Assembly: GCA_016928395.1 (NCBI GenBank)
Contig: JAFGKV010000050.1
Coordinates: 1 to 36,504, forward strand
Length of the DNA stretch: 36,504 nt
DNA from: Candidatus Fermentibacterota bacterium
GTDB taxonomy: Bacteria; JAFGKV01
Reading direction: 5' to 3'
Of the stretch, positions 20,004 to 36,504 are shown piece by piece. The position numbers were made by a program, and so were the translations under genes. Positions within the stretch are counted from its first letter, which is position 1, and each line of letters opens with the position of its first letter. The notes beneath the pieces were generated by a model that saw only the letters and a list, made by a program, of their open reading frames with translations, was not told where the DNA came from and made no database searches.

Positions 20004-20006
20004 GGA

Positions 20007-21002
20007 TCAGCCGTAGTACTGGCGGTGGCAGCAGCGCAGGCATCCCGGCAGCATCGAGCCGCGTCGTCTGGCAGCCCGGAACTTTCGCCAGCGCGGCGAG
20101 TTCCAGATCTGCGGCAGAGGCTGCTCACGCAGAGTCCCCATGTACAGATCGAGACATGGCGCAACCTCCGCACCGGGGTACACCCGGGCCACGACCCACG
20201 GCACCACGCAGAGGGTGCCAAACGGATAGTCGAGATCGCGGTAGTACGGATTGATGTCTCCCTCCCTAATAGGCGGAAACACGTTCAGTCGCATGCCGAA
20301 GCTTCGACCGCGAATACTCTGAAGCTGCCTGCCTATCTCCTCTGGGTTCATGGCCCGGGCGAGGTCGATTGTGGAGCGATCGAAGACCAGATGCTGCAAA
20401 GTGAGGGAATCGGCGCCCCACGCTGCCAGGTCGGTAACGGTCTCCTGGAGCCGGGCCTGATTGTCGGGACTGATCGTGCAGTTCAGCGCGATGCTCGGGG
20501 TCTTCTTCCGGGCCTGGAGCACACGGCTCACCCCCTCCCGTGCGGCCTGATAGCTGCCAGTGACCCCTCGAATGTGGTCATGGAGACCCTCGGGGCCGTC
20601 GACACTCACCGTGATATGGTTGACGCCCCAGGCCGCCAGGTCCTTGGCGTAGCGGGGAAGGAAATACCCGTTCGTGGTGATACTGGTGGCGAATCCCTGG
20701 CGACACGCCTGGCGGACCAGTTCCGCGAAGGCGACATGCACCATGGGTTCTCCCCCGATGAAGTGCACTACAGGCTTGCGCCACCACCATCGCCGGGCGA
20801 GGTCATCGAGGGTTCGCGAGACAAGATCGGCATCCAGATGAATCCCCGACGTGCTTCTGGTAGAACACATGGCACAGCGGAGATTGCACGCCCCGGTGAG
20901 CGTAAAGCTGACCATAAACGGCTGATATGACCAGCCACCCTGAAGACGTACCATCCCGCTTACACGATGGTGCTGCCAGGAGAGAATTCGTTTTAGGTTC
21001 AC
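20007..21002 (-). CDS. Radical SAM protein with SPASM-like C-terminal cysteines
   Basis: The 331-residue protein binds a radical-SAM [4Fe-4S] cluster through Cys39, Cys43 and Cys46 (TLTGACNLRCAMCSTR). FIGGEPMVH supplies the GGEP SAM-contacting motif and ITTNGYFLPR the next strand. C-terminal cysteines at 265, 283, 321, 324 and 325 (ending PGCLRCCHRQYYG) look like a SPASM/twitch auxiliary-cluster site. Such proteins modify peptides or sugars or act in cofactor pathways. Its start ATGA overlaps the stop of the upstream GT4, so it is translated with the glycan enzymes. A role in making an unusual sugar or acid is inferred from context. Confidence 0.93.
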   Translation of the reverse strand: MNLKRILSWQHHRVSGMVRLQGGWSYQPFMVSFTLTGACNLRCAMCSTRSTSGIHLDADLVSRTLDDLARRWWWRKPVVHFIGGEPMVHVAFAELVRQACRQGFATSITTNGYFLPRYAKDLAAWGVNHITVSVDGPEGLHDHIRGVTGSYQAAREGVSRVLQARKKTPSIALNCTISPDNQARLQETVTDLAAWGADSLTLQHLVFDRSTIDLARAMNPEEIGRQLQSIRGRSFGMRLNVFPPIREGDINPYYRDLDYPFGTLCVVPWVVARVYPGAEVAPCLDLYMGTLREQPLPQIWNSPRWRKFRAARRRGSMLPGCLRCCHRQYYG

Positions 21003-22144
21003 GATGTGATTCCCTCGCGTCGTATGGGACTTCGCACATTGAGGGCCGCGTCATAGACTTCGCGGGTCTGCACTGCCATGCGATGGGGTGTAAACTGGGC
21101 CACGGTCTGCGCCGCCGCATCAACCATGTGTTGTCGGAGCTCATCATCTGTCAGCAATTCGTTCAGCCGCCCTCGGAGAAGCTCATCGTCCTCGTAGGGC
21201 ACAAGAAAGCCGTCTTTCCCGTCGTGGATCAACTCGCCTGCGCCACCATCGGATGGGCCTACCACCGCACACCCCGCGGCCATAGCCTCCATAAAGACCA
21301 GGCCGAAGGCCTCGGTCACTCCCGGCAAGGCCACAACCTTGGCCTTGCGGTAGAGAGATGCCAGGGCATCACCGTGAACCAGGCCGAAGCGCTTGATTCG
21401 CGGCCAGAGGCCGTTTTTGATGGCCAGCGATGCCATGGGGGAAGGTATCCTGGTGCCTGCAACCCACAGTTCGGCATCGGGTACGGCGAGGTAGGGCAGA
21501 CAGGCCACAAGGCGGTCAAGCCCCTTGCGGTAAGGGTTCCCGCCCACAAAGAGGATGCTGTCGTTCCGGCCGGCGGCGTCTCCCTTATCGATAGCAAGAT
21601 CCAGCCCGATGTGAATCGTCGTCATGCATCCGCCTGGGTGGTACGCGTGGAGGACCCTGGTCTTGGTCGCATCGGAATTGGCGATGAGCGCGTGAACCTT
21701 CCCGTAGGCGACTCGTTCCAGGGCTCGGGCAATGGTCGCATAGGCGAGGCGGGTGGGCCAGTCCGGATACCGGGAGCGATGCCGCCAGTAGTACCCTGGA
21801 TCGACGAAGTAGTAGTCATGCACCGTGCCCACCGAGGCGATGTCCCGCGTCCTGAACCACAAGGCCTCACGGGCGTCGATGAAGTGTACGAGGTCAACAT
21901 CGCGCAACGGGCGCAGACGTCGCGAGAATGCCCATGCATGGCCCATCCATCGGGCATGATTGGGCAGTCGGCGAAATGGGACCGGGAGGAAATCCAGGCC
22001 CGGCACGGAAGCGCATTGGCTCGGCGGACACGCCACGACTACCTGGATCCCCAAGCGGAGCAAGCCCGCTGCCAGGGCCCGCGCATAGGTTCCGACACCG
22101 CTATACGGCAAGGCATACTGCCCGGTGGCAAGGCAGACCCTCAC
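20999..22144 (-). CDS. Family 4 glycosyltransferase
   Basis: A 381-residue GT4 starts at GTG 22144, whose GTGA overlaps the preceding stop, with GGAG 5 bases upstream. The N-terminal domain opens VCLATGQYALPYSGVGTYAR. The acceptor-side segment DLVHFIDAREALW and HDYYFVDPGYYWR precede the donor domain. That domain holds SILFVGGNPYRKGLDRLVAC, VVALPGVTEAFGLVFMEAMA (E-x7-E) and GCAVVGPSDGGAGELI. It lies between another GT4 and the radical SAM gene, each with 4-base overlaps. Donor and acceptor are unknown. Confidence 0.93.
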   Translation of the reverse strand: MRVCLATGQYALPYSGVGTYARALAAGLLRLGIQVVVACPPSQCASVPGLDFLPVPFRRLPNHARWMGHAWAFSRRLRPLRDVDLVHFIDAREALWFRTRDIASVGTVHDYYFVDPGYYWRHRSRYPDWPTRLAYATIARALERVAYGKVHALIANSDATKTRVLHAYHPGGCMTTIHIGLDLAIDKGDAAGRNDSILFVGGNPYRKGLDRLVACLPYLAVPDAELWVAGTRIPSPMASLAIKNGLWPRIKRFGLVHGDALASLYRKAKVVALPGVTEAFGLVFMEAMAAGCAVVGPSDGGAGELIHDGKDGFLVPYEDDELLRGRLNELLTDDELRQHMVDAAAQTVAQFTPHRMAVQTREVYDAALNVRSPIRREGITS

Positions 22145-23301
22145 GCCATCTCCGCCAGAGTCGCCCTCACCCACCGCGCGAAGCGAGGGCCGATGACGTT
22201 CCAGTCATACTGAGCCGCGGTCTCCCTCCCTCTGAGAGACATTCCCGTTCTTCGATCCGCAGCATCGAGCAGTTCCGTCAGGCACGCAGCCACTGCCGAG
22301 GGTTCGGGCCGCGTCACTACACCCGCACCGCTCTCTCTGGCTATCCGGGCGCCGTCGCCTACCGGTGTCGTGACAAAAGGAAGCCCCGCCGCCATATACT
22401 CCAGGATCTTCAAATGGAAGGCATACCGGTTCCAACGGGTCGGCGGGAGGATTGCCAGGCCGACCCACGCTGCGGCCATCAGAGGAGGCGTAGCGTTACT
22501 CGATATGCTGCCGTGCCATGTAACAAACGACGCCAGACCAAGGCGTTGGGCAAGGGAGGCAAGCGGTCTTCGAGCCGGGCCGTCTCCTGCTACCACAATG
22601 CGTATTTCGCGCTTCATCAATGGAAACGCCCTGAGCACGACATCGAGGCCGCAATCGCGCTCCAGGCCACCCACGTAGAGAATGGTTGGCTCCGGAGATT
22701 CTGCGCGGGGAAGCCCAAAAAGGCGCGTGTGCACGCCATTTGGGTAGAGGTGGGTTGACTTTGCGCCGGTCTCAGCAGCGTGACGCTGCAGGGAGAACCC
22801 AGCACATGAGACGGATGTCGCACCGCGCAGGGCACATTCCTGCCACCTGTTGAGGATCCAGCGATGGGGTCCATCAACTCGGCCTCCGCCATAGTCATCC
22901 GCATGATCATAGATGAAGCGGATCCCTCTATCACGGCAGGCCATGGCGGGTACAGGGCCCTGAACCAACGCTACCTTCTCCACGGGCGCCACCGCACGCA
23001 GAGCCGTGCGCAGCATCACGCGATTGATTACCGGTCCCAGCAAGCTGGGCAAAGGGCTGCGTCTCACCGCGGTGGTAGTCCCCGCCAGCCAGATGAGCGG
23101 GCATCCCTCGCCGACAACCCGGCGGGGCCACCCGCGCAAGGGGGATCCGGGCGGCGCCTGGTCACCGCTGATGCCGATCCCCGGAGGGACGAGACTCACC
23201 TTGCGCAAAGGAGCCAGGGACTCGAGGAATGCGGCAAGGTGCCGTATGCGGTGCTCGTGATGGTGGAACAAGTCATTGGCAACCAGGAGCAGGGAATCCA
23301 T
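22141..23301 (-). CDS. Family 4-like glycosyltransferase
   Basis: The 386-residue protein starts at ATG 23301, with GAGG about 11 bases upstream. It begins MDSLLLVANDLFHHHEHRIR, the type of N-terminus seen in glycosyltransferases with an HxxxR-rich first loop. Donor-domain marks are ILYVGGLERDCGLDVVLRAF, IVVAGDGPARRPLASLA, FHLKILEYMAAGLPFVTTPVG and GAGVVTRPEPSAV. The region FIYDHADDYGGGR (about 128-140) and the arginine-rich middle are less conserved. It is the first gene after the small basic protein gene and a short hairpin. Confidence 0.9.
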   Translation of the reverse strand: MDSLLLVANDLFHHHEHRIRHLAAFLESLAPLRKVSLVPPGIGISGDQAPPGSPLRGWPRRVVGEGCPLIWLAGTTTAVRRSPLPSLLGPVINRVMLRTALRAVAPVEKVALVQGPVPAMACRDRGIRFIYDHADDYGGGRVDGPHRWILNRWQECALRGATSVSCAGFSLQRHAAETGAKSTHLYPNGVHTRLFGLPRAESPEPTILYVGGLERDCGLDVVLRAFPLMKREIRIVVAGDGPARRPLASLAQRLGLASFVTWHGSISSNATPPLMAAAWVGLAILPPTRWNRYAFHLKILEYMAAGLPFVTTPVGDGARIARESGAGVVTRPEPSAVAACLTELLDAADRRTGMSLRGRETAAQYDWNVIGPRFARWVRATLAEMA

Positions 23302-23615: not shown

Positions 23616-23644
23616 ATTCTAAGGTCTGGGCGGGCTGGGAGCAA
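23616..23644 (-). promoter_or_regulatory. Candidate promoter of the 42-residue basic protein gene
   Basis: TTGCTC (23639-23644) and TAGAAT (23616-23621) lie on the minus strand with exactly 17 bases between them. The -10 hexamer matches consensus at five positions; the -35 is weak. The TAG of the -10 box is also the stop codon of the preceding GT4 gene, so the promoter is embedded in its 3' end. It would give a leader of about 50 bases before the start at 23559. Confidence 0.45.
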
Positions 23645-24920
23645 GCCCATGGCCCGATAGCTCGCCCAGCCGGCGGGAAAGATCCCTGCACCGGGCCTGT
23701 ACACTCCAGGCCCTCTCCACCCTCCGCCGCCCCCGGGCGCTGAGCCTCAGGCGAAGCTCGGGCTCATCCATGAGCCGCGCCATGGCCGCGGCCATGGCCT
23801 GCGGGTCGCCGGGCGGCACCAGCAGGCCGGCACCGGCGCCGACAAGTTCGGGAATACCGCTCACCGTGGTGGACACGGTGGGAATTCCCGTGGCCAATGC
23901 CTCAGTGAGCACCGACGGAAGACCATCCATGTTTCCCGCGTCATCCCTCCGTGCGGCGAGCACGAAGAGATCTGTCTTCGCCAGCAGATCCCTCACCGCT
24001 TCCTGCACCAGCGGGCCTTCGAAGCGCACACGATGGGAGATCCCCAGCTCCGTGGCGAGCCCCTTCAGAGAGTGCTCCAGAGGACCGGCGCCGACGATGG
24101 AAAGAAACCACGGCCTCGCGCTGAGCAGAGCCACGGCCTTGAGGAGCACATCAAAGCCTTTGATTGCGACCAGCCGGCCCACCGAGGCGATCCTGCACAC
24201 GGCCGGCTGGGGATCCGGAGGCCGGTACGCATAGGAGGACAGGTCGATGCCGACTCGAATGACCTGTACTCTGCGCGGAGAGATGCCTAAGGCCATGCCG
24301 CGGAGGAGACGGCGGTTGAACCGGCTGATAGTCCTTACCCAGGCGGCTTGGGTGATGCGACGGCCCAGCTCATCGGGATCGGAGAGGTAGATGTCGTGTG
24401 CGTGAGCCGTGGCGCTGAAGGTGGTCCCGTGAAGAATGGCCATAGTACGCGCGGCTGCTGCTGGAGACGAAAGGTAGTGCGCATGGAAGTGCTCGGGTGC
24501 GTGGGGGATCGCCTCCCGTGCGAGATAGAGTGCGCCCAGAGACGCGTGGAATGCTTCGGGGCCTCCGGCCCCGCGCAGGGCCCTCGTCAAGGTGCGGGGT
24601 GCGTGAGTTCCCCAGAACAAGAATGCCCGGGCGATATGCGCCCTGCGCCGCTCTTCGGGCAGGATGACCACAGGGGCATCCAGGGCCTGCACCATGGGAT
24701 GGGCCAGATTGTCAGGATTGGATCCGAAGGCGAAGATGGACACCTGGATGCCGAGTCTGTGCATCTCGTAGAGCTCGCGGAGGATGAATGTCTCGGAGAG
24801 CACGGGATATCGTGCCAAGACGAAACCGACGCGGGGCGCAGTGGCCGTGTAACCCGGGGATTCCCTGTCAATGCTGACTGCCCGTCTGGCCAGAATGGCA
24901 GAACCGCATGGCCCGTTCAT
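23619..24920 (-). CDS. Family 4 glycosyltransferase, WcaL/colanic-acid-type
   Basis: The 433-residue GT4 resembles exopolysaccharide glycosyltransferases of the WcaL/AmsK type. The N-terminal half has the motif VLARYPVLSETFILRELYEM and the DPxxFHAHYLSSPAAAA-like region EHFHAHYLSSPAA. The donor half has RIASVGRLVAIKGFDVLLKA, SIVGAGPLEHSLKGLA and DGLPSVLTEALATGIPTVST (E-x7-E region). Its ATGA start overlaps the DUF2723 stop. The first 29 residues are a less conserved extension. It ends the first overlapping glycan block. Confidence 0.93.
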   Translation of the reverse strand: MNGPCGSAILARRAVSIDRESPGYTATAPRVGFVLARYPVLSETFILRELYEMHRLGIQVSIFAFGSNPDNLAHPMVQALDAPVVILPEERRRAHIARAFLFWGTHAPRTLTRALRGAGGPEAFHASLGALYLAREAIPHAPEHFHAHYLSSPAAAARTMAILHGTTFSATAHAHDIYLSDPDELGRRITQAAWVRTISRFNRRLLRGMALGISPRRVQVIRVGIDLSSYAYRPPDPQPAVCRIASVGRLVAIKGFDVLLKAVALLSARPWFLSIVGAGPLEHSLKGLATELGISHRVRFEGPLVQEAVRDLLAKTDLFVLAARRDDAGNMDGLPSVLTEALATGIPTVSTTVSGIPELVGAGAGLLVPPGDPQAMAAAMARLMDEPELRLRLSARGRRRVERAWSVQARCRDLSRRLGELSGHGLAPSPPRP

Positions 24921-27004
24921 GGCGAGCGGCCCCGGACAGGATGTGATGCCAGCAGCGAATCGGCTTCGGCATGTCGGCCCAAGCGGCGGAGGCAGAGAGC
25001 CATGTTGGCTGCCACGAGAGGGCGCATCGAAGGGTCACCTCGCGTCATGGCTTGGGCGAATCTGGTGAGAGCCTGGTCAAAGGCGCCTGTCAACATGAGG
25101 GAAACTCCTCGAAGGTTCAGGATTTCGGTGCTGGACTGGCCCTTGTGAGACGCAAGTATACGCAGAGCTCGGCCGGGGTCACCATCGGCGAGGGCGCGCC
25201 GGGTCGCATGAGCTGTCAGCGAGACACTGGAGGGGAACGAGGTGGCCAACGACTCCGATAGCGCAGTGACGGTAGGGCAGGGGCCTCGGAGGCTCTCCAC
25301 GGCTGAGGCCAACAGCTCAGCACTCACCACCGGCAAGGGGCCGCAACGGATGAACGATCGAGCGCCCCGGCCCAGATCCTCGCAACGGCCCATCTTCGCC
25401 AAGGAGACAACCAGCGAGTACCAGATGGCCCGATTGCCCGAATCGGTCTGGAGTGCCCACGCGAAGCGCTGCACGGCACTCTGGTGCTGTGAGACTGCCG
25501 CCAAGAGCTGAGCGCCTTGCGCCATGCGGAGTGCTCGATGACGGCCTCCCTGGGAGCCCGGACGCCCGTGGTCGGCCCACCGCGCCAGAGCGGCTCGATC
25601 CTCGTCGTGGTCATACGAGCCCTGAAAGGACAGCCACCCTTCAGGAATCAGGAGGCCTCGCGTTTCATCCGGCAGCTGCGAGAAGGTGAATACGGGCTGC
25701 AGGCCGGCGGCCTCCGCGGCGCGGGAGATCGAAGCATAGGGAGGATCCGGCTGGGCCGGTAGAGCCGCAGAAAGCCTCGGATCCAAGGTTGAACGGTACC
25801 ATGCTAATCCCAGATACGGCGTGTATACCACGCGAGGTCGGGTGTGCTGAGACCACGCATGGTGCAGCATGAGGAAGAGGTCGGTGCTGCTGTCGGTGAA
25901 CAAGACCCGACCCTCCAACTGAGAGGCCAACGCATCCCTGTAGTCACACGCCGACAGGTCGGTGGAACGGTCAAGCCGAGGGAGAAGCGGAGCCACGAGC
26001 AGCGCAGTCCCCGAACAGATGGCGATGGCGGCAGCCATCCTGGGGAACCTTAGCACACCGACCGCTAGGATTGCCGAGCCTATTATCAAGGGGCACAGGG
26101 GCAGCAGATAGCCGATGACATCGGGCCCCCCGCCTGTGGTTACCGCCACGGCAGCCAGAAGACCACCCGATAGCACCACCAACGGCATGCGGCGAATCAG
26201 TACCGGCAGTGCCAGGGCGGAAAGTCCCAGCGTGACCGGTGGCAGGGATGCGTTGAGGAAACCCTTGAGGGTGCCGAACGTCCCGGCCAGGGACCCACCG
26301 GCCAGCAGGCGCCCCGAAAGCGCGTCGGAGCGGAATTCCTGGAGCGTCACGATCCACAGGAATCCTCGGATCGTCCGGCTGCTGCCCCAGTCAATGCAGG
26401 GAGCGTCGAGAGATCTCAGTGGCAGTATCGCAAAGATCGATAGTGCCAGCGCGGTACCCGCCGCCAGAGGCTTGAGACGCGCACGCACAAGAGGGAACAG
26501 CACCGGGGCGAATGCGACGGCGGATGGGTGATTCCCCAGCGCAAGCCCGAACACATAGCCTGCCCCAAGCGCTGCCCTGGGTGAGGACATCGCGGTGGCA
26601 AGCGCGATGAGAATCATGGTCAGCAGGACCTGTAGCGTATAGACCTCGCCGTGGGTTCCCTGCATCCATACCACCGGCGAGGCGCCGAGTGCGAATCCTC
26701 CGGCCAGACCCAGTGCTACGCCTGCTCGGGCGGCCAGGATCCCCGCTAGCACTGCCGCGGCACTCGCGCCGCTCACTGCGGCGACCCACGAAGCCGCCCG
26801 TGCCCCCGAGACACCGGAGAGGACCTTCACCGCGCGACTCAGCAGGACGAAGAGCGGGAAGCCGGGTGAGTGAGGAATTCCGTGGCACTCCGCCGCCAGG
26901 GCCAACTCGGGCGTGTCATCCCACCCCACATCAGGGAGCATCGTGGCCGCGTAGGCCGTCAGGACCAGGATGCCTGCTGCCAGCGCGGTCAGGATCGGTT
27001 TCAC
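24917..27004 (-). CDS. DUF2723 GT-C-like membrane glycosyltransferase with TPR tail
   Basis: The 695-residue protein starts at GTG 27004, overlapping the previous stop (GTGA). The N-terminal 380 residues are a polytopic membrane domain of the DUF2723 family, related to protein O-mannosyltransferase and ArnT-type GT-C enzymes. The first periplasmic loop has the expected acidic and glycine motifs: LPDVGWDDTPELALAA and HGIPHSPGFPLF. These enzymes take sugars from polyprenyl-phosphate donors on the periplasmic side. The soluble C-terminal half, about residues 490-695, is alpha-helical with TPR-like units (ILNLRGVSLMLTGAFDQALT, AANMALCLRRLGRHAEAD). The gene context (ArnC-like and ArnD-like partners) suits a polyprenyl-phosphate-sugar acceptor reaction. 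Confidence 0.9.
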   Translation of the reverse strand: MKPILTALAAGILVLTAYAATMLPDVGWDDTPELALAAECHGIPHSPGFPLFVLLSRAVKVLSGVSGARAASWVAAVSGASAAAVLAGILAARAGVALGLAGGFALGASPVVWMQGTHGEVYTLQVLLTMILIALATAMSSPRAALGAGYVFGLALGNHPSAVAFAPVLFPLVRARLKPLAAGTALALSIFAILPLRSLDAPCIDWGSSRTIRGFLWIVTLQEFRSDALSGRLLAGGSLAGTFGTLKGFLNASLPPVTLGLSALALPVLIRRMPLVVLSGGLLAAVAVTTGGGPDVIGYLLPLCPLIIGSAILAVGVLRFPRMAAAIAICSGTALLVAPLLPRLDRSTDLSACDYRDALASQLEGRVLFTDSSTDLFLMLHHAWSQHTRPRVVYTPYLGLAWYRSTLDPRLSAALPAQPDPPYASISRAAEAAGLQPVFTFSQLPDETRGLLIPEGWLSFQGSYDHDEDRAALARWADHGRPGSQGGRHRALRMAQGAQLLAAVSQHQSAVQRFAWALQTDSGNRAIWYSLVVSLAKMGRCEDLGRGARSFIRCGPLPVVSAELLASAVESLRGPCPTVTALSESLATSFPSSVSLTAHATRRALADGDPGRALRILASHKGQSSTEILNLRGVSLMLTGAFDQALTRFAQAMTRGDPSMRPLVAANMALCLRRLGRHAEADSLLASHPVRGRSP

Positions 27005-28395
27005 GGCATTCTCAAGAGAGTCTTGAGCAGAAACCATGCGGCATTGGCATTGAGTGCCCGCTGGGTGAAGGTCTTGTGCCGGGTGAGAGAGCTCAGGGCC
27101 TTCGGTCTCCGGTAGAACGCCAGGACCGCGGATCGTCGTGCGCGCCACACATCGCGGGGCGGCAGTCCCTCACTACGGTGAACCGGGGGTGTGTGAATGC
27201 CCCAGTCCGACCATCGGGGGGAGAGAATCGCCTTGCGTGCGATCAGCTCATCGTAGAGCCTCGTGCCCGGATAGGGCTTGAATATTTCAAACTTGGCGAC
27301 ATCGAGACCCAAGGATCTGGAGAAGTGAGCCGTCTGTACCAGAGTGTTAGCCGATTCGCCCGGTAGACCAAGCATGAAGAACCCCCACACGGTCATGCCC
27401 AAGCGATGGGCGGCATCAATTACCGGGGTCGCGCGGTCGAGGCTCTGATGCTTGCCCGCCCGAACCGCGACGGCATCGTTGGAGGTTTCAATGCCCATGC
27501 CGAAGCTATGGACCCCCATGGTCCGCATCGCGGACAGCAGGCCATCATCCAGCATGTCGCACCGGAGACCATTACCGAAGGCATAGGGTATGCGGGGGCC
27601 TCGACTTGCGAAGGCTTCCATGATTGCCATGGCGCGGTCTCGATCCGCGGTGAAGCAATCATCCATGATATGGATCTCCCGGGCCCCGATGGTTTGACGA
27701 ACATGCCAGGCATGCTCCACCGCCCGTTCCGGCGTCAGATATCGTACCTTTGCACCGAAGAGGCTGGTTGACTGACAGAAGCCGCAGCGCCCCGGGCATC
27801 CTCGGCTAAGCATGATCGTACCGACAGGAAGTGCCCGGGCATCCGGGGGGCGATAGCCGGACGGCCTTCTGACCAGGTGCCATGCCGGTAAGGGGAGATC
27901 ATTCAACTCCCCCTCAGTGAGCAGGGTGCGGGGCACGGCTGGTTCGTCAGGCCGCACCACGCCCGATACTGAAAGGTCTGGCTCTTGCCTCACCAGGAGA
28001 GCGCAGTACTCGGTGATCGCGTTCTCAGCTTCACCCTGGAACACGGCATCGAAGCAGCCAGTAGCCAGCACCTCACCCGGGAGGGCACTGGCGTGGGGTC
28101 CGCCGATGAGCACCGGGCACCCAACAGCGGATCTCATCCGCGCAGCCCATCTCCGCGCAGCAGGAAATGCCGGCGTCGTAGCGGTGAATCCCACGATGTC
28201 GGGCTGCCACCGGCGGGCCCACACCCTCACGCCATGACTATCTGCCCCCTCCCCATCAGCATCCACCACCCGGACACTGTGGCCCTCGGACTCCAGGCAC
28301 GCCGCGATCTGAAGCAACCCCATCGGCGGGTACACCGGTCTCATCGGGCTGCCATAGGCCGCCCATTGCGGAGGCGCGATAAGCAGGACCTTCAT
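27001..28395 (-). CDS. B12-binding-domain radical SAM protein
   Basis: The 464-residue protein has an N-terminal B12-binding-like Rossmann domain (about 1-150; KVLLIAPPQ, FTATTPAFPAARRWA, LIGGPHASALPGEV). A radical SAM domain follows, with Cys200, Cys204 and Cys207 in SRGCPGRCGFCQS. Further marks are IMDDCFTADRDRA, FGNGLRCDMLDDGLL, SFGMGIETSND and GFFMLGLPGESANT. The classical DxHxxG cobalamin motif is not visible, as in many members of this class. The family catalyses methylations and other difficult reactions on sugars and lipids. Its ATG (ATGA) overlaps the deacetylase stop, and its stop overlaps the DUF2723 start. The substrate is not predictable. Confidence 0.93.
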   Translation of the reverse strand: MKVLLIAPPQWAAYGSPMRPVYPPMGLLQIAACLESEGHSVRVVDADGEGADSHGVRVWARRWQPDIVGFTATTPAFPAARRWAARMRSAVGCPVLIGGPHASALPGEVLATGCFDAVFQGEAENAITEYCALLVRQEPDLSVSGVVRPDEPAVPRTLLTEGELNDLPLPAWHLVRRPSGYRPPDARALPVGTIMLSRGCPGRCGFCQSTSLFGAKVRYLTPERAVEHAWHVRQTIGAREIHIMDDCFTADRDRAMAIMEAFASRGPRIPYAFGNGLRCDMLDDGLLSAMRTMGVHSFGMGIETSNDAVAVRAGKHQSLDRATPVIDAAHRLGMTVWGFFMLGLPGESANTLVQTAHFSRSLGLDVAKFEIFKPYPGTRLYDELIARKAILSPRWSDWGIHTPPVHRSEGLPPRDVWRARRSAVLAFYRRPKALSSLTRHKTFTQRALNANAAWFLLKTLLRMP

Positions 28396-29264
28396 GCGAC
28401 ACCTTGTGATGCGACCGTGTCGAAGCGGCCGGCGAGAGGGATCTGCACGACTGGGCAGACCGGGAGGCTCGCCTGAAGAGCCATGGCATCGCTCAGGGTT
28501 CCAACCCTGGCGACGGCTTGTACGATGTCAAGAAGCCGGGACAGAAGATCGGGGAAACGCAGGCCCTCGACCTCTGCGTGGGCACAGTAGCACGAGTACT
28601 CCCGGCAGGTCACCTCGCGTGCCACTCGGTTGGTGAGGATCTTCAACGATTGACCGGCGCGCACCGTCTCTTCGGCGGTGGGCAAGGTGACGGGCAGTTG
28701 AGGAGTGTGCATGCCGTCTGGCAGAAAGGGCGTGGAGCCTCGACAATCTGATGCATAGAGAAACCCCGCCTTGTCCACGGCTGCAAGGGTCTCTGGGGTC
28801 ACGATCCATCCGGGTGCGGCGAATGCCTTGGCCCGCTCTCCCAAAGCGGCGGCGAACGCGGCTTGGCCTCGGCGCACTTCCAGGTCTACTCGTTCCAGAG
28901 GCCATGCCCGGCAGCGGTGAATCCACAGCCAGTGATCATGCCCGTGCAGTGCCAGCTCATGCCCGAAGACCATGGGCCGCGCCACCCGCGCCGCAGCCGC
29001 CATGGAGCGGACGGGCACCGCGATACCCGCCATGAACGCGCTGACAATGCTGGCGCCGGCGGGTCGAAGCCGGAGCATCTGGCGTAGCCGATGGGGCTTT
29101 CCGATGATGCGTGCCAAAGCTAAGCCGGATCGATCCGGACCCATGGGCATCATCACCGTTGCCCGCACACCCCGCGATGCAAGAATGCGAAGCATGCTCG
29201 GGAGTCCAAGCATGAGACCGGTTGCCGTTTCCACGTCGATGCGCAGGGCGAAGTATGGTATCAC
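28392..29264 (-). CDS. ArnD-like polysaccharide deacetylase / deformylase
   Basis: The 290-residue protein belongs to the NodB/polysaccharide-deacetylase superfamily and looks most like ArnD, which removes the formyl group from undecaprenyl-phosphate 4-formamido-arabinose. Evidence is YFALRIDVETATGLMLGLPS at the start, VMMPMGPDRSGLALAR and VFGHELALHGHDHWLW (His107 and His111 as the metal pair). The first motif reads IDVE where ArnD reads IDVD, so a metal ligand is Glu12 rather than Asp. The start is GTG 29264, overlapping the methyltransferase stop (GTGA). It follows the ArnC-like GT2 and methyltransferase. Confidence 0.9.
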   Translation of the reverse strand: MIPYFALRIDVETATGLMLGLPSMLRILASRGVRATVMMPMGPDRSGLALARIIGKPHRLRQMLRLRPAGASIVSAFMAGIAVPVRSMAAAARVARPMVFGHELALHGHDHWLWIHRCRAWPLERVDLEVRRGQAAFAAALGERAKAFAAPGWIVTPETLAAVDKAGFLYASDCRGSTPFLPDGMHTPQLPVTLPTAEETVRAGQSLKILTNRVAREVTCREYSCYCAHAEVEGLRFPDLLSRLLDIVQAVARVGTLSDAMALQASLPVCPVVQIPLAGRFDTVASQGVA

Positions 29265-29974
29265 TTCTGGAACCACCCGGCAGCGTACCATGCCCGGTGC
29301 CGGAGTGCAGGCACAGTGCCCATCAGTCTGGCGTCAAGATTCTGCAGCCATCGAACGGCAGGCGTCATCCGCCGCGAGAGGAGCACGACAAGAGGTGAGA
29401 GTAGGAAGAACCACGCCATCTCTTTTCGCATGAAGCCGCTTCCCAACGAATCCAGCTCTCGCGCGCTCAGGAAGCGAGGCCGCACATGCCGCCCCGGAAG
29501 CGCCCGCCTGGCCAAGGAGACCAGCGGGTGCCCGGCCAGTGGTTCCACCACGGCGAACACGCCTCCGGGCATGAGGACCCGATACACCTCCTCAACCACC
29601 GTGCGGGGCTCCACATGCATCAGCATTGTCTGTTCCCAGACTGCGGCCATCATACCGGTGCGGAGCGGAAGAACCTGCGCATCGGCCAGGACAAGCTGCA
29701 GGGTAGCCGGCCGACAGTTCACGATGTCCATGGCGTACGCCGCCGGATTCTGTTCGTCGGCACAGGTCGATTCCATGCCGCTGCCAAGCTCCAGAATCGA
29801 ACCCGGCGGTGCGCGACGGAGCCCGTCAAAGGCCCAGGACCTACATGGCCGAAGAAACCACTGATACCCGTAGGCCCTTCGTCCCGCCGCAGAATCGCCC
29901 CAGTACTCCCGAAAGAACTGGCGCTCCAGGGGTCTGACCCCTGACGATGTTGCCTCTGACAGTCCGCTGCTCAT
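29261..29974 (-). CDS. SAM-dependent methyltransferase (class I)
   Basis: The 237-residue protein has the class I fold: motif I GSILELGSGMESTC (about 58-71), an acidic AMDIVNC strand, LVLADAQVLPLRTGMMAAVW and a VVEEVYRVLMPGGVFAVVEPL motif typical of Methyltransf_11. The stretch around 170-210 (EMAWFFLLSPLVVLLSRRM) is hydrophobic and may touch the membrane. ATG 29974 overlaps the GT2 stop (ATGA). It probably methylates a sugar or lipid intermediate of the locus; that is inferred from neighbours. Confidence 0.88.
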   Translation of the reverse strand: MSSGLSEATSSGVRPLERQFFREYWGDSAAGRRAYGYQWFLRPCRSWAFDGLRRAPPGSILELGSGMESTCADEQNPAAYAMDIVNCRPATLQLVLADAQVLPLRTGMMAAVWEQTMLMHVEPRTVVEEVYRVLMPGGVFAVVEPLAGHPLVSLARRALPGRHVRPRFLSARELDSLGSGFMRKEMAWFFLLSPLVVLLSRRMTPAVRWLQNLDARLMGTVPALRHRAWYAAGWFQK

Positions 29975-30717
29975 CGCCGGTCCTGCTGCGCCAAGAGAGG
30001 CGTAGAACGAAGCCTGACCCGGGCGCACAGGGTCAGCATGTCCAGCCCGACCCGCCCTATCCTGCCGGGTGAATAGCGCGATGCCCGACATGAGCCACCG
30101 CCGCATACGGGCACCTCCACAGGGTTCCTCGCCGACAGAAGACCGAGCCCTGGCAGACACGGGCCGAGTTCGCTCAAGTGGACACAGCGAGCGGCTGTTT
30201 CGTGGGCATAGAGTCTGAACATAGAGCCATGGTCTCGGATTGGGCTCGGGCGCAGCAGGTTGCAGCACATCCGCAAGACCAGCGACACCGCTAACCGGGT
30301 CACGGAGCGTCGGCGTCCCATGCGGTATCCCACGACAAGGTCAGCATGTCCAATCAGGGGAATCAGGAGGGCCAGTTGGTCGGGCGGGGGATCCATGTCG
30401 GCATCCATGGTGGCTACCATCGCAATGTCCGGCATCCGCAACGCGTGGGCCATTCCCCGCAGCACGGCGCGGTGTTGCCCTGATGGTAAGGGGCATCTGA
30501 CATGCGCAAACAGTCTCGTATCCAGCCCAGACAGGAGTATCGGAGTGGCATCGGAGGAGGCGTCGTCCGCGAACACGATACGAACCGGCCGGTCAGAGGC
30601 AGCGGTGAAGGCGCGCAGACTCGCCGCCAGGTCCGGCAACACGGCCTCCTCATTGCGAACGGGTATCACGACGGCAAGGGCACCACGCCCGCGTGCTTCG
30701 TCAGGAAGAGCAGTCAA
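29971..30717 (-). CDS. ArnC-like family 2 glycosyltransferase (undecaprenyl-phosphate type)
   Basis: The 248-residue protein carries the GT2 fold: LAVVIPVRNEEAVLPDLAAS, FADDASSDATPILL, a DxD region MDADMDPPPDQL (104-115) and the ArnC/DPM-type SPIRDHGSMFRLY (158-170). It ends in SRYSPGRIGRVGLDMLTL, the segment that precedes the membrane helices in ArnC, but the two helices themselves are missing. I chose TTG 30717 with GAAGG 9 bases upstream, because the longer frame to GTG 30798 would place the start inside a strong hairpin (30786-30818). It heads the glycan operon; the start is uncertain. Confidence 0.85.
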   Translation of the reverse strand: MTALPDEARGRGALAVVIPVRNEEAVLPDLAASLRAFTAASDRPVRIVFADDASSDATPILLSGLDTRLFAHVRCPLPSGQHRAVLRGMAHALRMPDIAMVATMDADMDPPPDQLALLIPLIGHADLVVGYRMGRRRSVTRLAVSLVLRMCCNLLRPSPIRDHGSMFRLYAHETAARCVHLSELGPCLPGLGLLSARNPVEVPVCGGGSCRASRYSPGRIGRVGLDMLTLCARVRLRSTPLLAQQDRR

Positions 30718-30785
30718 GGAACGTGACCTTCGCCCAGCGACCGGGTGAAAACAGGGCTTCCTGGCGGATCTGCGATGCCACAATG

Positions 30786-30818
30786 CCGCCCGCCCCACCT
30801 GAGACGGGGGGCGGGCGG
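30786..30818 (-). terminator. Strong 11-bp GC hairpin between the PorV-family gene and the glycan locus
   Basis: CCGCCCGCCCC (30786-30796) and GGGGCGGGCGG (30808-30818) are perfect inverted complements around an 11-base loop. On the minus strand it begins 22 bases after the PorV-family stop at 30840. No T-run follows, so it is not a classical intrinsic terminator, but its stability and position suggest transcription attenuation or RNA protection at the boundary. Confidence 0.5.
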
Positions 30819-30839: not shown

Positions 30840-31760
30840 CTAAAAGCCTATGCCTAAGGAGAGGCGGTGCGTGTCCTGAAGCTTTGCGTACGGTACGTAG
30901 GCGTAGTCAATGGCCGCTGCCATCGAACCCAGAGAGGTCCTTAGCCCACCACCAAAGCTCAGGTCCTCGTCATCGTAGCGGATCTTATAGCCCGTGCGCA
31001 ATGCCACCATTTCCGAGTACCAGTACTCCATGCCCATGGTGTACCTTTCCTGGTTGTCGCTGGGATGGCTACCGGCAAAGGCGACAGTCAGACGGTGAGG
31101 CCCGCTATGCAGCGGGTCTATGGCGAACCCCAGATTGAAGTTGATGGGGAGGGGAAAACTCTCAGTGATGAAGGTCAGGTCCGGCCCGAAGTTCGTGACC
31201 GCCATCGCGATTCTCAGCGACTTGAAGCCTGTCTCATAGTTCGTACCGACATCCGCGGACCATCCGGTGGCATCCACATCGTGGGCATACAGCTGAATGT
31301 ATTTCGCCGTGATGCCAAAACTGAATTTGTCCGTGAGAAAGCGCGAATAGGAAAGGCCCACGGCCATATTGTGGGTGCTGAAGGTTTGCCCCGTTCCATT
31401 GGGGTAGAACGGCGTGGTGACCTCCATGTCGTCCATGTGAAGCAGGGTCGCCGACACCCCAACTACTCCGGCGTCTCCGGGCACAGGCATGGCGAATGCG
31501 AGGAATTCACACTTGATGTCCGCAGGCCACTCCGTATGGCTCAACAGGAGTTGCCGTTGGTCCACCAGGCTCAAAGCGCCCGGATTGTAGTAGATGGCCG
31601 CCGCATCGTCCGCCACGGCCAGGAATGCCTCCCCCATACCCACGGCCCGAGGCGAGACACCGATCTGAAGGAAATTGGCCCCAGTAGTTCCAACCTTTAC
31701 CTGGGCGCTGAGAGTCCCCGGTATGACGAGCAGGGCGGCCAGGATGGCGATCTTCTTCAT
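30840..31760 (-). CDS. PorV/PorQ-family outer-membrane barrel protein
   Basis: The 306-residue protein belongs to the PorV/PorQ (UPF0164) family, outer-membrane barrels of which PorV is the shuttle component of the type IX secretion system. A signal peptide (about 1-19, cleaved after SA) is followed by the hallmark FLQIGVSPRAVGMGEAFLAV and ADDAAAIYYNPGALS. Alternating barrel strands end at a C-terminal phenylalanine (LSLGIGF). ATG 31760 has GGGAGG 6 bases upstream. It is the third gene of the receptor/secreted-protein cassette. Family is firm; participation in type IX secretion is inference because no other Por component is seen here. Confidence 0.93.
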   Translation of the reverse strand: MKKIAILAALLVIPGTLSAQVKVGTTGANFLQIGVSPRAVGMGEAFLAVADDAAAIYYNPGALSLVDQRQLLLSHTEWPADIKCEFLAFAMPVPGDAGVVGVSATLLHMDDMEVTTPFYPNGTGQTFSTHNMAVGLSYSRFLTDKFSFGITAKYIQLYAHDVDATGWSADVGTNYETGFKSLRIAMAVTNFGPDLTFITESFPLPINFNLGFAIDPLHSGPHRLTVAFAGSHPSDNQERYTMGMEYWYSEMVALRTGYKIRYDDEDLSFGGGLRTSLGSMAAAIDYAYVPYAKLQDTHRLSLGIGF

Positions 31761-31774
31761 TGCAGTCCTCCCGG

Positions 31775-33886
31775 CTACTTCAGCACCACGAACTTGCCCA
31801 CCTCGATGGATCCCTTCTTGGGGCCTGAGGTGTATTCCACGCTGAAGAGGTAGATGTCACTCACGATGCTTTGATTGTTCCGGTTAATCATGTCCCAGGG
31901 TTCTCGGGGGCTTGACTCGTCAGCATGATAGACGGTGTCAACCAAGTCTCCGTCCAATGTGTAGATCCTGATGGTCGCGGTTCCCGGCGCCAGATTGATG
32001 AAGTCTATTCTGCGAGTATGCTCGCTCCACCGGACCTTCGGATCGTAGGCCTCCCACTGGAGACCTTCGTAGTCAGCGTCGATTCGGTATGGGTTGGGCA
32101 CGACCCGTACCGCAAGGTCAGAGTCCGTACCGAATTCATTGGCACCAGGAAAGATAGGGCCCAGTTCCAGGTAGTGCTTGAGAACCGAGCTCTCCAGGGG
32201 GCCGAGCCCCGAGCGTTCATCCCCCATGTCGAAGGCCACCACGGAGTAGTAGTACGGGTAGAGCGCAGTCAATCCTTCGTCTACATAGGTATAGGCGTAG
32301 GCGTCACCCGGAGAGCCCTGGTAGGGGGGAGGGGGCCATTCCGGCTCATAGTCTACCACATCGGGGTTCTGCGCCCACTCGTACAGGAGGGTGGAGCTTT
32401 CCAAGGTGCCGTAGCGGCTCCGGTAGATACGGTACCCTGCGAAGTCCTCCAACTGGGTGAACGGATCGATGCTTAGCTCCGAGTCACTGGACCAGTGGAG
32501 GGTGACTCTATTCTTGCCGGGAACGGCCATGACCTTGGGCGCAGACGGTGGAGGCGGGCCTCGGAAATCCGGTATGCCGTCACCTTCGACCCAGATAGTG
32601 TCTTCATTCACTATGCGGAACTCGCCGCGATACCCGTCGCCGTCTGTATCGATGCCCGGGATATCGTATACCCGGGCCGCCCACACGGCATTGGCGGCAA
32701 CGTCCAGGAAGTTGAAGACGCCCGGTGAGCGTACGAAGTTGGCGCCGCAGACATAGGCCAAGGTCACCGGGAGCGTGTCACCCGGATCGATATCGAACGG
32801 CCCGAATGACAACAGGTATCTCGTGTCTTCATAGGGCGTTCCCGCGGGGATCTGATCCGCAACTTCGACCTGATTCGGATCGAAATACCCGTTGGACATG
32901 ATGCGGTACTTGGCGGCATCGCCGTCGGGGGTGCCACCCACATCGGTCGGATCAGTCACAACCCTGGGGCCCCAGTCGCGCTGGGTATTGGTGTCGGAGA
33001 GCCACCAGTTGTAGCTCACGCGAAGGTCTGGATTCGGGGTGCGCACAATGCGCACGCCACTGACGCCGCTCGTGTTGTCGGAACCGTAGTAGTCGGAGAT
33101 CCAGGCGAGGTTGATGGTGATGGAGTCGCCGAAGACATCCACCGTCTTCTCGGCGAAGCCCGTGACGTCGTCCTGGGCCCCGTCGTGGATATCGGTGTTG
33201 GGACCGACGCAGTCGGCGTCGATATAGACGCCCAAATAGACATCGCGGATAGTCTTGTTATCATTCCGGATGTTCTTCACACTGAAGTCGAACAGGACGA
33301 AGTCCTCCGCGTAGGAATAACTCCATGAGTAGCTCCGCTGGGTCACCTCGATACCCATAGGCATGTGAGACGTCGGCACCTTGTCATACGTTTCCGAGGT
33401 AAAGGTGTCGGCGTACACCGCGACGTAGTCCTGCTCAGAGACGGCCCGGACGGCGATGAGCGAATCACTGCTGGAGATTGAGAGCGAATCGATGAGGCAG
33501 GGAATCGCCTTGTAGGTACAGGGAAACATCTCATTCTCATGCTGCCACCCATCGGCGCCAACGGACACCAGCGTATCATTGTCGACCACGCCGCCGATCC
33601 ACATGGCGCCCTGGAACAGATAGTCGATCCCTGAGCCCCCGGGGAACTCGCACTTGGGCAGCCATTGCTCCGTGCCCCGAACATCGGTCTGCTCGTCATT
33701 TCCGAAGAATCCAAAGTTGGAAATGGTGAGCCAGATATTGCCCACCATGTGGGTCTTCTGTTCTCGGGCCGGGTCATCGGCGCTGGGCGCCCGCTGGCCT
33801 GCTCCGCCGGGTACGGTGGCAGCCATGCGGGCCACGGCCGGCGTCGAAAGGAGCGCCAGGATCGCGGCAACTGTGCGCGGCTTCAT
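31775..33886 (-). CDS. Large secreted protein with Fn3-like region and Por-type C-terminal domain
   Basis: The 703-residue protein has a signal peptide (about 1-20) and a long beta-rich ectodomain. Around 455-560 an Fn3-like segment occurs (PPPPSAPKVMAVPGKNRVTL, DFAGYRIYRSRYGTLES). The last 110 residues resemble the immunoglobulin-like C-terminal sorting or FlgD-like domain: LAVRVVPNPYRIDADYEG, TATIRIYTLDGDLVDTVYHA and IYLFSVEY, ending IEVGKFVVLK. One calcium-loop-like DTDGDG occurs at about 423. GGGAGG lies 8 bases before the ATG. It follows the receptor gene by 13 bases and precedes the PorV-family gene by 14. Function of the ectodomain is unknown. Confidence 0.88.
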   Translation of the reverse strand: MKPRTVAAILALLSTPAVARMAATVPGGAGQRAPSADDPAREQKTHMVGNIWLTISNFGFFGNDEQTDVRGTEQWLPKCEFPGGSGIDYLFQGAMWIGGVVDNDTLVSVGADGWQHENEMFPCTYKAIPCLIDSLSISSSDSLIAVRAVSEQDYVAVYADTFTSETYDKVPTSHMPMGIEVTQRSYSWSYSYAEDFVLFDFSVKNIRNDNKTIRDVYLGVYIDADCVGPNTDIHDGAQDDVTGFAEKTVDVFGDSITINLAWISDYYGSDNTSGVSGVRIVRTPNPDLRVSYNWWLSDTNTQRDWGPRVVTDPTDVGGTPDGDAAKYRIMSNGYFDPNQVEVADQIPAGTPYEDTRYLLSFGPFDIDPGDTLPVTLAYVCGANFVRSPGVFNFLDVAANAVWAARVYDIPGIDTDGDGYRGEFRIVNEDTIWVEGDGIPDFRGPPPPSAPKVMAVPGKNRVTLHWSSDSELSIDPFTQLEDFAGYRIYRSRYGTLESSTLLYEWAQNPDVVDYEPEWPPPPYQGSPGDAYAYTYVDEGLTALYPYYYSVVAFDMGDERSGLGPLESSVLKHYLELGPIFPGANEFGTDSDLAVRVVPNPYRIDADYEGLQWEAYDPKVRWSEHTRRIDFINLAPGTATIRIYTLDGDLVDTVYHADESSPREPWDMINRNNQSIVSDIYLFSVEYTSGPKKGSIEVGKFVVLK

Positions 33887-33899
33887 CGGTCACGCCTCC

Positions 33900-36504
33900 C
33901 TAGAAGGTGGTTCTGATGCCGACCCGGATATTGCGGCCGGCCAGGTAGTTATAGGGGTCGCGCAGATAGAGCCTGCCGTCGCCCCAGGGCGTACCCCAGC
34001 GTGCGTAGACCTCTCGGACATTGGAACGGTCAAACACATTGCGGACATCGAGAACCAGATCGAGCCCGATCCCGGCAACCTGGAATCCCTTGTTCATTTT
34101 GATGTCCAGTTCGCTGGTATAAGGCTTTCGCACATTGTTTGCCACATTGTCCCCTTCGACTTTTCTGCCACTGGATTCATCCTCGAGTGTGTAGGGCAGC
34201 CCGCTCCCATACTTCCAGAGCACATTAACGCCCCAGTTGGAGGGAAGTCTCTGGCCGAAGAGCCGGACTTCGTCACCGGGGAAGAATCGGAAGTCCACGC
34301 TGGTCGTGAGGGAGTTGCGTTCATCCCAGTCAAGATAGTTGTCGGTCAGCGGCAGGTTCTCACCGGCGAAGCCCGAGTCGTACACGCTGCGGTCCGAGGA
34401 GCTCTTACCCGTGGCGATCATGTATGCGTATGACGCATTCCCGCTGATATGGTTGGAGTAGCGCTTCTCGAAGTTCAGCTCGAAGCCTCTGATGCGCCCA
34501 TAGTCTACATTGCCGTACACGTAGAACCGGTCAAACCGGTCCCCGAGAACCCATTGATTCACCAAATCAAACACATCCTTGAAGAACCCTGTGACATCAA
34601 CCTTGAAGTTCTCGTTGAACGCATGATTGATGCCGAACTCGTAGGCCACGGTGCGCTCGGGCAGTAAGTTGGGATTTCCAAACAGGTTATAGGCCGAAGG
34701 GCCCTGCGTATCCCTGGCATATACCTTGTCGAACTCGGGCCACTGGACGAAGTGGCCGTAATTGAAATAGAGCACGTCATGGTCGGTGATGGGATGGCTG
34801 ATGCCAAGGCGCGGGCTCATGTAGAACTTCCACATGTCCAGCGGGATGAGCGCGCCGCTTTGATCATACACTTCACGGCCTTCGAGGTTCGTGCCGAGGT
34901 AGCGGAAGTCCAGCCGGAGCCCGGCGTTCACGATGAGCCCCTCGAACTCCATCTTGTCTTGCGCGTACACCGCGCCGTCTACCGGTTGGCGGGAGTAGAA
35001 ATCACGGAAGGTCCCGCGGTCTGGATACCCGCCCAGGCTGTCCGCCTCAACGTCTTCGTAGGGATACTCATGCTGCGGGTACTGCACCTCTTTGTGGGTG
35101 AAATCATTGAAGCTGAGCGAGAAGCCGGTCTTGGCCTGGTGGTGCTTGCCGAGTTGGGTCGTCAGGTCGAACTTGACGGTGCCGATGGTCTCCTTGCGCT
35201 CGTGATACTGTGCCCACTGATCGTAGGTGCCTTCACGGCCCCGGTTCCATGAGCCGCTCCAGTTGGCGTCTTCATACGGCTCGCCGAAGAGATCGCACAC
35301 CCCGTTGTTGTTGTAGTCGACCCACTCACTGTCTTGGTCATCGGCCCGACCGGAGCCATCGGCCACGCCATTGCCGTTCCAGTCATCCCAACGGCTGCGC
35401 CACTCAGGCGGGTCATACTTGCTATTGCCTTCGCTTCCATAGGGGTTGAGGGTGGCGTGGTAGTTGTCGCCGTTGGGATCGGGGTTGGTGACCGGGTCAA
35501 AGCCGGGCTCCTGCGCATCGGGCACGCCGTCTATGCCCACGTCATAGAACGGTTCAGCGTCGAATCCGGGGTCGGCAAAGCCGTCGTAGGGATCCCACAG
35601 GCCATTACCGTTCCAGTCGGTGAAGCGTTCGCCGGGATCGTACACGCCGTTGGGCTCAACGTAGGCAAACGAGCGGATCCCATTGGCGGTGACGACCCAG
35701 AGGTCGTCGACCCGCATATCGCCTTCACCAGGCTGCCACACTCCATCGCCGTTCAGGTCGTTCCACGGGTCATACACGCCGTTGAACTGATAATCAATAT
35801 AGGCGACTTCGCCTGAGTCCCAGAGACCGTTGCCGTTGCGGTCTACGAAGCTCCATCCATCCTGGAAGGGCTCGCCCTCGTCCCATCGGCCGTTGACGTT
35901 CAGATCCCCGAATGCCTCCGCGTAGTCAAACTGGCTGTTGGGAAGATCGTATACGCCGTTGCCGTTGAGGTCTTCATACGGTTCGCCGGGGTCCCACGCG
36001 CCGTTTCCCTCTCCGGCCGAGCGATCGCCGGTGAGCGGCAATCCATCGGCGCCGCAGTCCAGGAACGGTTCGCCATCGCACCAGGGTTCGTGGTAGTCGG
36101 GCACGGACCTTCGATAGCTGCCCCAGAAGTAGCTCCACGGCAAGATTACAAGGTTGTCGAGATCCGCCAGTAAGTCGTAGAAGGAGCGATAATCGCCCCA
36201 GGATCCCCAGGTCGAGACCGGCACGATCTTGGGGAACCAGTCGGGACGGTTCCCCCCGGGAAGCAACTCGTAGTGGGTCGTAAACAGACCGGCGTTCACG
36301 GTATAAAACGTGTTGTTGCTGAGCGTATGCGTCAAATTGAGATTGTAGTGATTCGAGGTTCGCAATGTCTGATGGTTTGTCGAAGGCGTAAAGATCTTGG
36401 CCCAGTCAGATCCCTCATTGCGGTCATAGGACCCTCGATAGCTCAGCGTCATCTTCATCTGAGGCTTGAAGCGATAGCTCAGCTTTGCGGAGGCAGAGTA
36501 GCTG
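33900..36504 (-). CDS. TonB-dependent receptor barrel with calcium-loop-like repeat insertion, N-terminus beyond window
   Basis: The frame is open through the right edge, so the signal peptide, TonB box and plug are missing. Visible parts start in barrel strands (SYRGSYDRNEG, NLNLTHTLSNNTFYTV), then a roughly 280-residue repeat insertion (35229-36080). The barrel resumes (TVKFDLTTQLGKHHQAKTGF, PRLGISHPITDHDVLYFNYG, NPNLLPERTVAYEFGI, FDLVLDV-type LDLVLDVRNVFDRSN) and ends IRVGIRTTF with the usual final Phe. These receptors take up chelated metals, vitamins or glycans by TonB energy. An ATG at 36458 is internal and not the true start. The next gene starts 13 bases downstream. The ligand is unknown. 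Confidence 0.92.
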   Translation of the reverse strand, partial: SYSASAKLSYRFKPQMKMTLSYRGSYDRNEGSDWAKIFTPSTNHQTLRTSNHYNLNLTHTLSNNTFYTVNAGLFTTHYELLPGGNRPDWFPKIVPVSTWGSWGDYRSFYDLLADLDNLVILPWSYFWGSYRRSVPDYHEPWCDGEPFLDCGADGLPLTGDRSAGEGNGAWDPGEPYEDLNGNGVYDLPNSQFDYAEAFGDLNVNGRWDEGEPFQDGWSFVDRNGNGLWDSGEVAYIDYQFNGVYDPWNDLNGDGVWQPGEGDMRVDDLWVVTANGIRSFAYVEPNGVYDPGERFTDWNGNGLWDPYDGFADPGFDAEPFYDVGIDGVPDAQEPGFDPVTNPDPNGDNYHATLNPYGSEGNSKYDPPEWRSRWDDWNGNGVADGSGRADDQDSEWVDYNNNGVCDLFGEPYEDANWSGSWNRGREGTYDQWAQYHERKETIGTVKFDLTTQLGKHHQAKTGFSLSFNDFTHKEVQYPQHEYPYEDVEADSLGGYPDRGTFRDFYSRQPVDGAVYAQDKMEFEGLIVNAGLRLDFRYLGTNLEGREVYDQSGALIPLDMWKFYMSPRLGISHPITDHDVLYFNYGHFVQWPEFDKVYARDTQGPSAYNLFGNPNLLPERTVAYEFGINHAFNENFKVDVTGFFKDVFDLVNQWVLGDRFDRFYVYGNVDYGRIRGFELNFEKRYSNHISGNASYAYMIATGKSSSDRSVYDSGFAGENLPLTDNYLDWDERNSLTTSVDFRFFPGDEVRLFGQRLPSNWGVNVLWKYGSGLPYTLEDESSGRKVEGDNVANNVRKPYTSELDIKMNKGFQVAGIGLDLVLDVRNVFDRSNVREVYARWGTPWGDGRLYLRDPYNYLAGRNIRVGIRTTF
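35229..36080 (-). repeat. About 12 Asp/Asn/Gly-rich calcium-loop-like protein repeats inside the receptor gene
   Basis: Translated from the ATG at 36458, residues about 127-410 repeat a unit of roughly 15-30 residues of the form D-x-N-G-N-G-x-x-D-x-G-E-x-F-x-D. Readable copies include EGNGAWDPGEPYED, DLNGNGVYD, DLNVNGRWDEGEPFQD, DRNGNGLWDSGE, DLNGDGVWQPGE, DWNGNGLWDP, DWNGNGVADG and DYNNNGVCDLFGEPYED. Such loops resemble dockerin, thrombospondin type-3 and EF-hand-like calcium sites. The insertion lies between two barrel strands and so should project outside the cell. The copies are diverged, so it is not a recent tandem duplication of DNA. Confidence 0.85.

Follow-up and report, generated by a model that had tools for sequence, protein, structure and literature searches.

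The window analysed here, 36,504 nucleotides of a contig from a Candidatus Fermentibacterota bacterium (source genome 4.8 Mb, fragmented, 94% complete), carries six minus-strand genes between 23619 and 30798 that encode, in order of transcription, a GT2 glycosyltransferase, a methyltransferase (MT), an ArnD-like N-deacylase, a B12-domain radical SAM enzyme (rSAM), a GT-C glycosyltransferase and a GT4 glycosyltransferase (Table 1). Their junctions are five four-nucleotide stop/start overlaps, a layout that suggests one translationally coupled unit, and the overlaps were used to place the starts of the deacylase and the GT-C. The initial annotation had described the first five proteins as a single overlapping block; all are present, in that order and on that strand, with every junction overlapping. 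The GT-C/GT4 overlap places the GT4 in the same operon, just beyond the range first read. No cobalamin riboswitch turned up near the operon in an Rfam search, whose sole matches were two tRNAs.

Table 1. Operon genes and associated features of the window, with the overlap each operon gene shares with the next.
Feature	Position	Strand	Family evidence	Overlap with next gene	Remarks
ArnC-like GT2, soluble form	29971-30798	minus	PF00535	ATGA, 29971-29974	Lacks C-terminal membrane helices; exact start uncertain
Class I SAM-dependent MT	29261-29974	minus	PF08241	GTGA, 29261-29264	237 aa; start within GT2 stop (ATGA)
ArnD-like N-deacylase	28392-29264	minus	NF011923; PDB 8t0j	ATGA, 28392-28395	290 aa from GTG 29264
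B12-domain rSAM enzyme	27001-28395	minus	PF02310, PF04055	GTGA, 27001-27004	Distinct orthologue family
GT-C glycosyltransferase, TMEM260/DUF2723 type	24917-27004	minus	PF11028	ATGA, 24917-24920	Start 27004; C-terminal TPR region
GT4 glycosyltransferase, EpsE/WcaL-like	23619-24920	minus	PF00534; NF041876 162 bits, below cut-off		Sixth operon gene
PorV/PorQ-family outer-membrane protein	30840-31760	minus	NF033709 224 bits (cut-off 90)		Conserved upstream neighbour
Candidate flippase, LPG_synthase_TM (AglD/GpgF-like)	11770-12846	minus	PF03706		11 kb downstream of operon

The GT2 possesses a DxD motif (DADMDPPP) and the ArnC-type signature G[CS]M[LF][RK]xY (as GSMFRLY), the latter common to arn-operon ArnC, the window protein and its module relatives, while GtrB-type paralogues read GCTLK or similar. 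Its best PDB match is ArnC (E = 2.7e-17; 65 bits, against 20 for DPMS). Control searches with GtrB-like paralogues, one from the same genome, also returned ArnC first, so this match was dropped as proof of identity and the assignment rests on motif and tree. Against the ArnC profile (NF007986, curated cut-off 529) the window GT2 scores 57.3 bits and its homologue in TA06 SM23_40 301 bits. A tree with GtrB-like paralogues, built without DPMS reference sequences, puts the window GT2 on the ArnC side (98/92), where the long-branched E. coli GtrB also lies. It is a GT2 of the polyprenyl-phosphate type, and its motif and tree position are in keeping with the ArnC relationship first proposed. Hydropathy reveals none of the two C-terminal membrane helices of ArnC in the window GT2 or that of the same-family genome G002; both helices are present in the TA06 and E. 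coli proteins, and on this measure the window and G002 enzymes have lost them. Homologues of the MT come after the GT2 in G002, TA06 and G125.

Deacylase identity is supported from several directions. The ArnD profile (NF011923) gives 145.6 bits (E = 1.8e-42), short of the curated cut-off of 382, so that by score the protein is an ArnD-family homologue and not an equivalog; the PDB search yields 8t0j (ArnD) as its sole match (E = 3.3e-35). An alignment of 12 sequences (the window and 11 ArnD homologues) keeps D19, H116, H120, R184, H238, E240 and others invariant, with the near-invariant D21 (second aspartate of LRIDVDT) replaced by glutamate in the window protein alone. In a tree of ArnD homologues, sequences from arn operons form a group (83/85); those associated with the rSAM fall outside it, without making up one clade. 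Profile, PDB search, alignment and tree thus agree on the ArnD family, and an identity as a peptidoglycan or chitin deacetylase, the outcome that would have spoken against the original proposal, is out.

The rSAM protein combines a CxxxCxxC cluster motif (RGCPGRCGFC) with a B12-binding domain (PF02310, 64.5 bits), and is predicted to bind cobalamin. Its orthologues are set apart by a gap in profile score, 384 versus 301 bits across 386 sampled genomes and 559 versus 367 bits in a second wide sample built around G125; the borderline matches at about 300 bits (G089, G340, G257, G189, G079 and G074) have no ArnD neighbours. Membership of the HpnJ family was rejected, since the two form separate clades (90/91 for this family, 100/99 for HpnJ) and the HpnJ profile (TIGR03471) gives 94.6 bits with a cut-off of 577.6. 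A structure model (pLDDT 88.5) is closest to AprD4 among solved structures (Z 36.0, RMSD 2.4 over 410 aligned residues, 22% identity), with three methylases next, MgmA, which C-methylates glutamine (Z 32.0), and CysS and TsrM (about 29). AprD4 is a radical SAM 1,2-diol dehydratase of apramycin biosynthesis that acts on an amino sugar; its substrate, unlike that proposed here, is a soluble aminoglycoside precursor. The resemblance is structural (89.1 bits to NF033070, cut-off 500) and leaves the reaction unfixed, with methylation one candidate, as yet unproven.

At the end of the block first described, the GT-C scores 54.7 bits against PF11028 (gathering cut-off 24.2) and has no PMT_2-type domain of the kind seen in G044 and G094, whose arn-type operons end with PF13231 enzymes. 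Searching the PDB with a profile of its family brought up TMEM260 (89.6 bits) as the only GT-C structure among the best 60 matches, ArnT being absent from these. Conserved W-[DE]-D and H-x-P-G motifs mark the family; the structure model is weak (pLDDT 69, pTM 0.54). Enzymes of the GT-C class use polyprenyl-phosphate sugars, and TMEM260 is a protein O-mannosyltransferase, from which the window enzyme differs in being bacterial and in carrying a TPR tail. A WOR-3 genome (G032, L155 5664-8330) encodes an ArnC-like GT2 (245 aa) directly before a second TMEM260-like GT-C, an adjacency that suggests a general pairing of donor enzyme and transferase.

G002 (MT at L033 11491-12279) and TA06 SM23_40 (L043) share the order GT2-MT-ArnD-rSAM-GT-C with the window, and the same-genus genome G001 shows ArnD-rSAM-GT-C-GT4 from its contig edge on; GT4 follows GT-C in both G001 and G002. 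Three WOR-3 genomes retain ArnD-rSAM-GT-C alone among unrelated flanking genes, with GT2 and MT absent nearby; in G032 the ArnC-like GT2 noted above sits elsewhere in the genome. Recurrence in other phyla makes the block more than a chance neighbourhood. The genomes that bear it are fragmented draft assemblies: in G247 the rSAM gene does not adjoin a GT-C, while G125 has ArnD and rSAM on separate contigs. Phylum-wide searches around G125 and G247 (two genomes each) gave no further members, nor did the second sample around G125, which covers largely the same genomes. One contig filed under Desulfuromonas sp. SDB (L045 1-11096) has the WOR-3 arrangement of rSAM, GT-C and flanks, likely a binning error in that MAG.

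We examined the fate of the formyl group that defines the Arn route. The window's own genome (94% complete) and its two relatives show no ArnA-type formyltransferase, only PurN and Fmt, which makes a formylated substrate doubtful in this lineage. An early claim that the module goes without any formyltransferase was dropped once fusions with ArnC were seen in G125, G247 and TA06. In G247 (L192 421-2382) and G125 (L194 1051-3039; followed by the module MT), ArnC is fused to an ArnA-type formyltransferase with its N-H-D residues intact; the same fusion in TA06 (L043 6688-8235) carries a degenerate domain that has lost N and D. We found no earlier description of such a fusion. This series from intact through degenerate to absent suggests descent of the module from an Arn-type pathway with formylation, a step that then decayed in TA06 and disappeared from the lineage of the window. 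The acyl group was thus probably formyl in the ancestor, on the evidence of the fusions, and may be acetyl (an N-acetyl sugar) in the window's lineage. WOR-3 genomes also contain a third, stand-alone formyltransferase of 217 aa with intact catalytic residues beside a hexapeptide-type acyltransferase (L068 1348-2001, minus strand; L154 8590-9704), possibly a sugar N-acylation pair.

The gene set, families, linkage and co-occurrence are observed; what follows on the carrier, the sequence of steps, the radical chemistry and the acceptor is inferred from them. By analogy with Arn, the ArnC-like GT2 would load polyprenyl phosphate, on the cytoplasmic side of the membrane, with an N-acylated amino sugar taken from a nucleotide donor. 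Removal of the N-acyl group by the ArnD-like enzyme would pull this step forward and leave a free amine. On the model of HpnI/HpnK/HpnJ, the rSAM would next act on the deacylated sugar, altering its carbon skeleton or a C-H/C-OH position through C-methylation, dehydration or an HpnJ-like rearrangement, and the MT would add a methyl group. A flippase from outside the block, for which the AglD-type protein downstream is a candidate, would turn the lipid over, and the TMEM260-like GT-C would hand the sugar on to a protein or glycan outside the cytoplasm. We put at roughly 60% the probability that this is an Arn-derived module that builds an amino sugar on polyprenyl phosphate, remodels it by radical chemistry and delivers it, with a TMEM260-like GT-C in ArnT's place. 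A more specific version, to which we would give somewhat less than even odds, has the rSAM remodel the polyprenyl-phosphate sugar by C-methylation, deoxygenation or carbocycle rearrangement and the GT-C place the product on a protein or glycan of the outer surface, perhaps PorV-linked. Upstream of the module (30840-36458) lie the PorV/PorQ-family protein, a protein of 703 aa that matches no family, and a TonB-dependent receptor; all three types are also upstream in G002 and G125, and PorV in TA06. This gene set is a possible lead to an outer-surface acceptor and to type IX-like surface attachment. An LPG_synthase_TM (AglD-type) protein related to the candidate flippase is encoded in an arn-type operon of G240 (L147 4503-5414), flanked there by ArnT and ArnC, and perhaps replaces ArnE/ArnF as flippase.

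Set beside the Arn (Pmr) pathway for L-Ara4N (E. coli arnBCADTEF), the module shares an operon that joins ArnC-like transfer to ArnD-like deacylation, a GT-C as end enzyme and, in G125 and G247, a formyltransferase, there fused to ArnC. It differs in always including an rSAM and usually an MT, in the type of its GT-C, and in a block without ArnA, ArnB or ArnE/F. The initial annotation had proposed an undescribed Arn-like route to a methylated or otherwise rearranged lipid-linked sugar. Its Arn comparison is sound, given the ArnC motif and tree, the ArnD identity, the conservation of the block in other genomes and the fusions, and none of the three outcomes named as refuting it came about. The formylated sugar of the Arn pathway suits the ancestor suggested by the fusions in G125 and G247 and is doubtful in the window's lineage. 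Its DUF2723 GT-C is there as described, and is TMEM260-like, not ArnT-like, by PF11028 and PDB profile search. Its core idea of an Arn-like route to a remodelled lipid-linked sugar is supported, while radical methylation is unproven, with a diol dehydratase as the nearest structure. The claim is best restricted to a module of Arn descent for a lipid-linked amino sugar, with rSAM chemistry and a TMEM260-like transferase.

The best-surviving alternative, itself unlikely, is that a glycerolipid or other membrane lipid, in place of polyprenyl phosphate, is the substrate of the GT2 and deacylase, giving a free glucosamine-type lipid, with the GT-C separate. There are two models for such a route. 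In the HpnI-HpnK-HpnJ pathway to bacteriohopanetetrol cyclitol ether, lipid-linked glucosamine is first deacetylated and then taken over by a radical SAM enzyme (PMC12583986), so that glycosyltransferase, N-deacetylase and radical SAM enzyme work in turn on a lipid-linked amino sugar, as we propose for the module. The GpgSDF system for glucosaminyl phosphatidylglycerol uses a glycosyltransferase, a deacetylase and an AglD-type predicted flippase (PMC12713373); there GlcNAc is loaded on the lipid and deacetylated, and the window likewise has GT4s and an AglD-type candidate flippase. Its GT2 is soluble. Against both stand the enzymes themselves. GpgSDF employs a GT4 and a different deacetylase family, whereas the window GT2 is of ArnC type and its deacylase scores 19.3 bits against GpgD (NF053788, cut-off 280) versus 146 against ArnD; the rSAM lies outside the HpnJ clade. 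Neither an rSAM nor a GT-C belongs to GpgSDF, and in the module a transferring GT-C comes after the rSAM, with this class of polyprenyl-phosphate sugar users linked in nearly all loci.

An improbable explanation, ranked next, is that the genes belong to separate pathways within a general surface-polysaccharide cluster, the ArnC- and ArnD-like enzymes making one sugar and the rSAM and GT-C serving others. The window is indeed rich in glycosyltransferases, and the genes are split over contigs in G125 and G247. Co-occurrence speaks for a common function instead: rSAM orthologues are found in 9 of the 386 sampled genomes (5 families), and all nine are among the 23 with ArnD-family proteins, the overlap having a hypergeometric probability of 1.7e-12 by genome and about 5e-7 by family, where the family figure takes at least 257 families and neither value is fully free of shared ancestry. 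The association holds in G125 and G247 even with the genes on different contigs. The other 14 ArnD genomes have arn-type operons with a formyltransferase (on a different contig in G314). Identical gene order in distant genomes, and the WOR-3 trio standing alone among unrelated genes, argue in the same direction.

Less probable again is that the target of the rSAM and MT is a protein or small molecule, such as a RiPP or lipid, which the neighbouring glycan genes only export or decorate. In its favour, the best NCBIfam scores of the rSAM are to ApyD (RiPP), BchE and HpnR, all far under cut-off. It is countered by the overlap coupling of the rSAM gene to ArnD and GT-C with no small conserved gene between them, and by a nearest solved structure, AprD4, that binds an amino sugar. 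An ordinary Arn pathway decorating lipid A with 4-amino-4-deoxy-L-arabinose is strongly disfavoured, for despite the ArnC- and ArnD-like enzymes and the fusions in relatives, the block has no ArnT-type GT-C, its genome no ArnA-type formyltransferase, and the arn-operon genomes of the sample no orthologue of this rSAM.

If the Arn-derived remodelling module is real, radical chemistry would join the short list of known reactions on polyprenyl-phosphate sugars, a bacterial TMEM260-like transferase would gain a donor-side pathway, and uncultured phyla (Eisenbacteria-type, TA06 and WOR-3) would offer a previously unnoticed envelope sugar for testing. No paper joining radical SAM enzymes to undecaprenyl-phosphate amino sugars was found in searches that covered the open literature and few subscription papers. 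Elsewhere in the window, a second cluster (16460-22174) encodes GT4s, a radical SAM/SPASM protein (20007-21002), a PaaK-like adenylate-forming enzyme (17530-18876) and a GT9, and its gene order is kept in G001 (L035).
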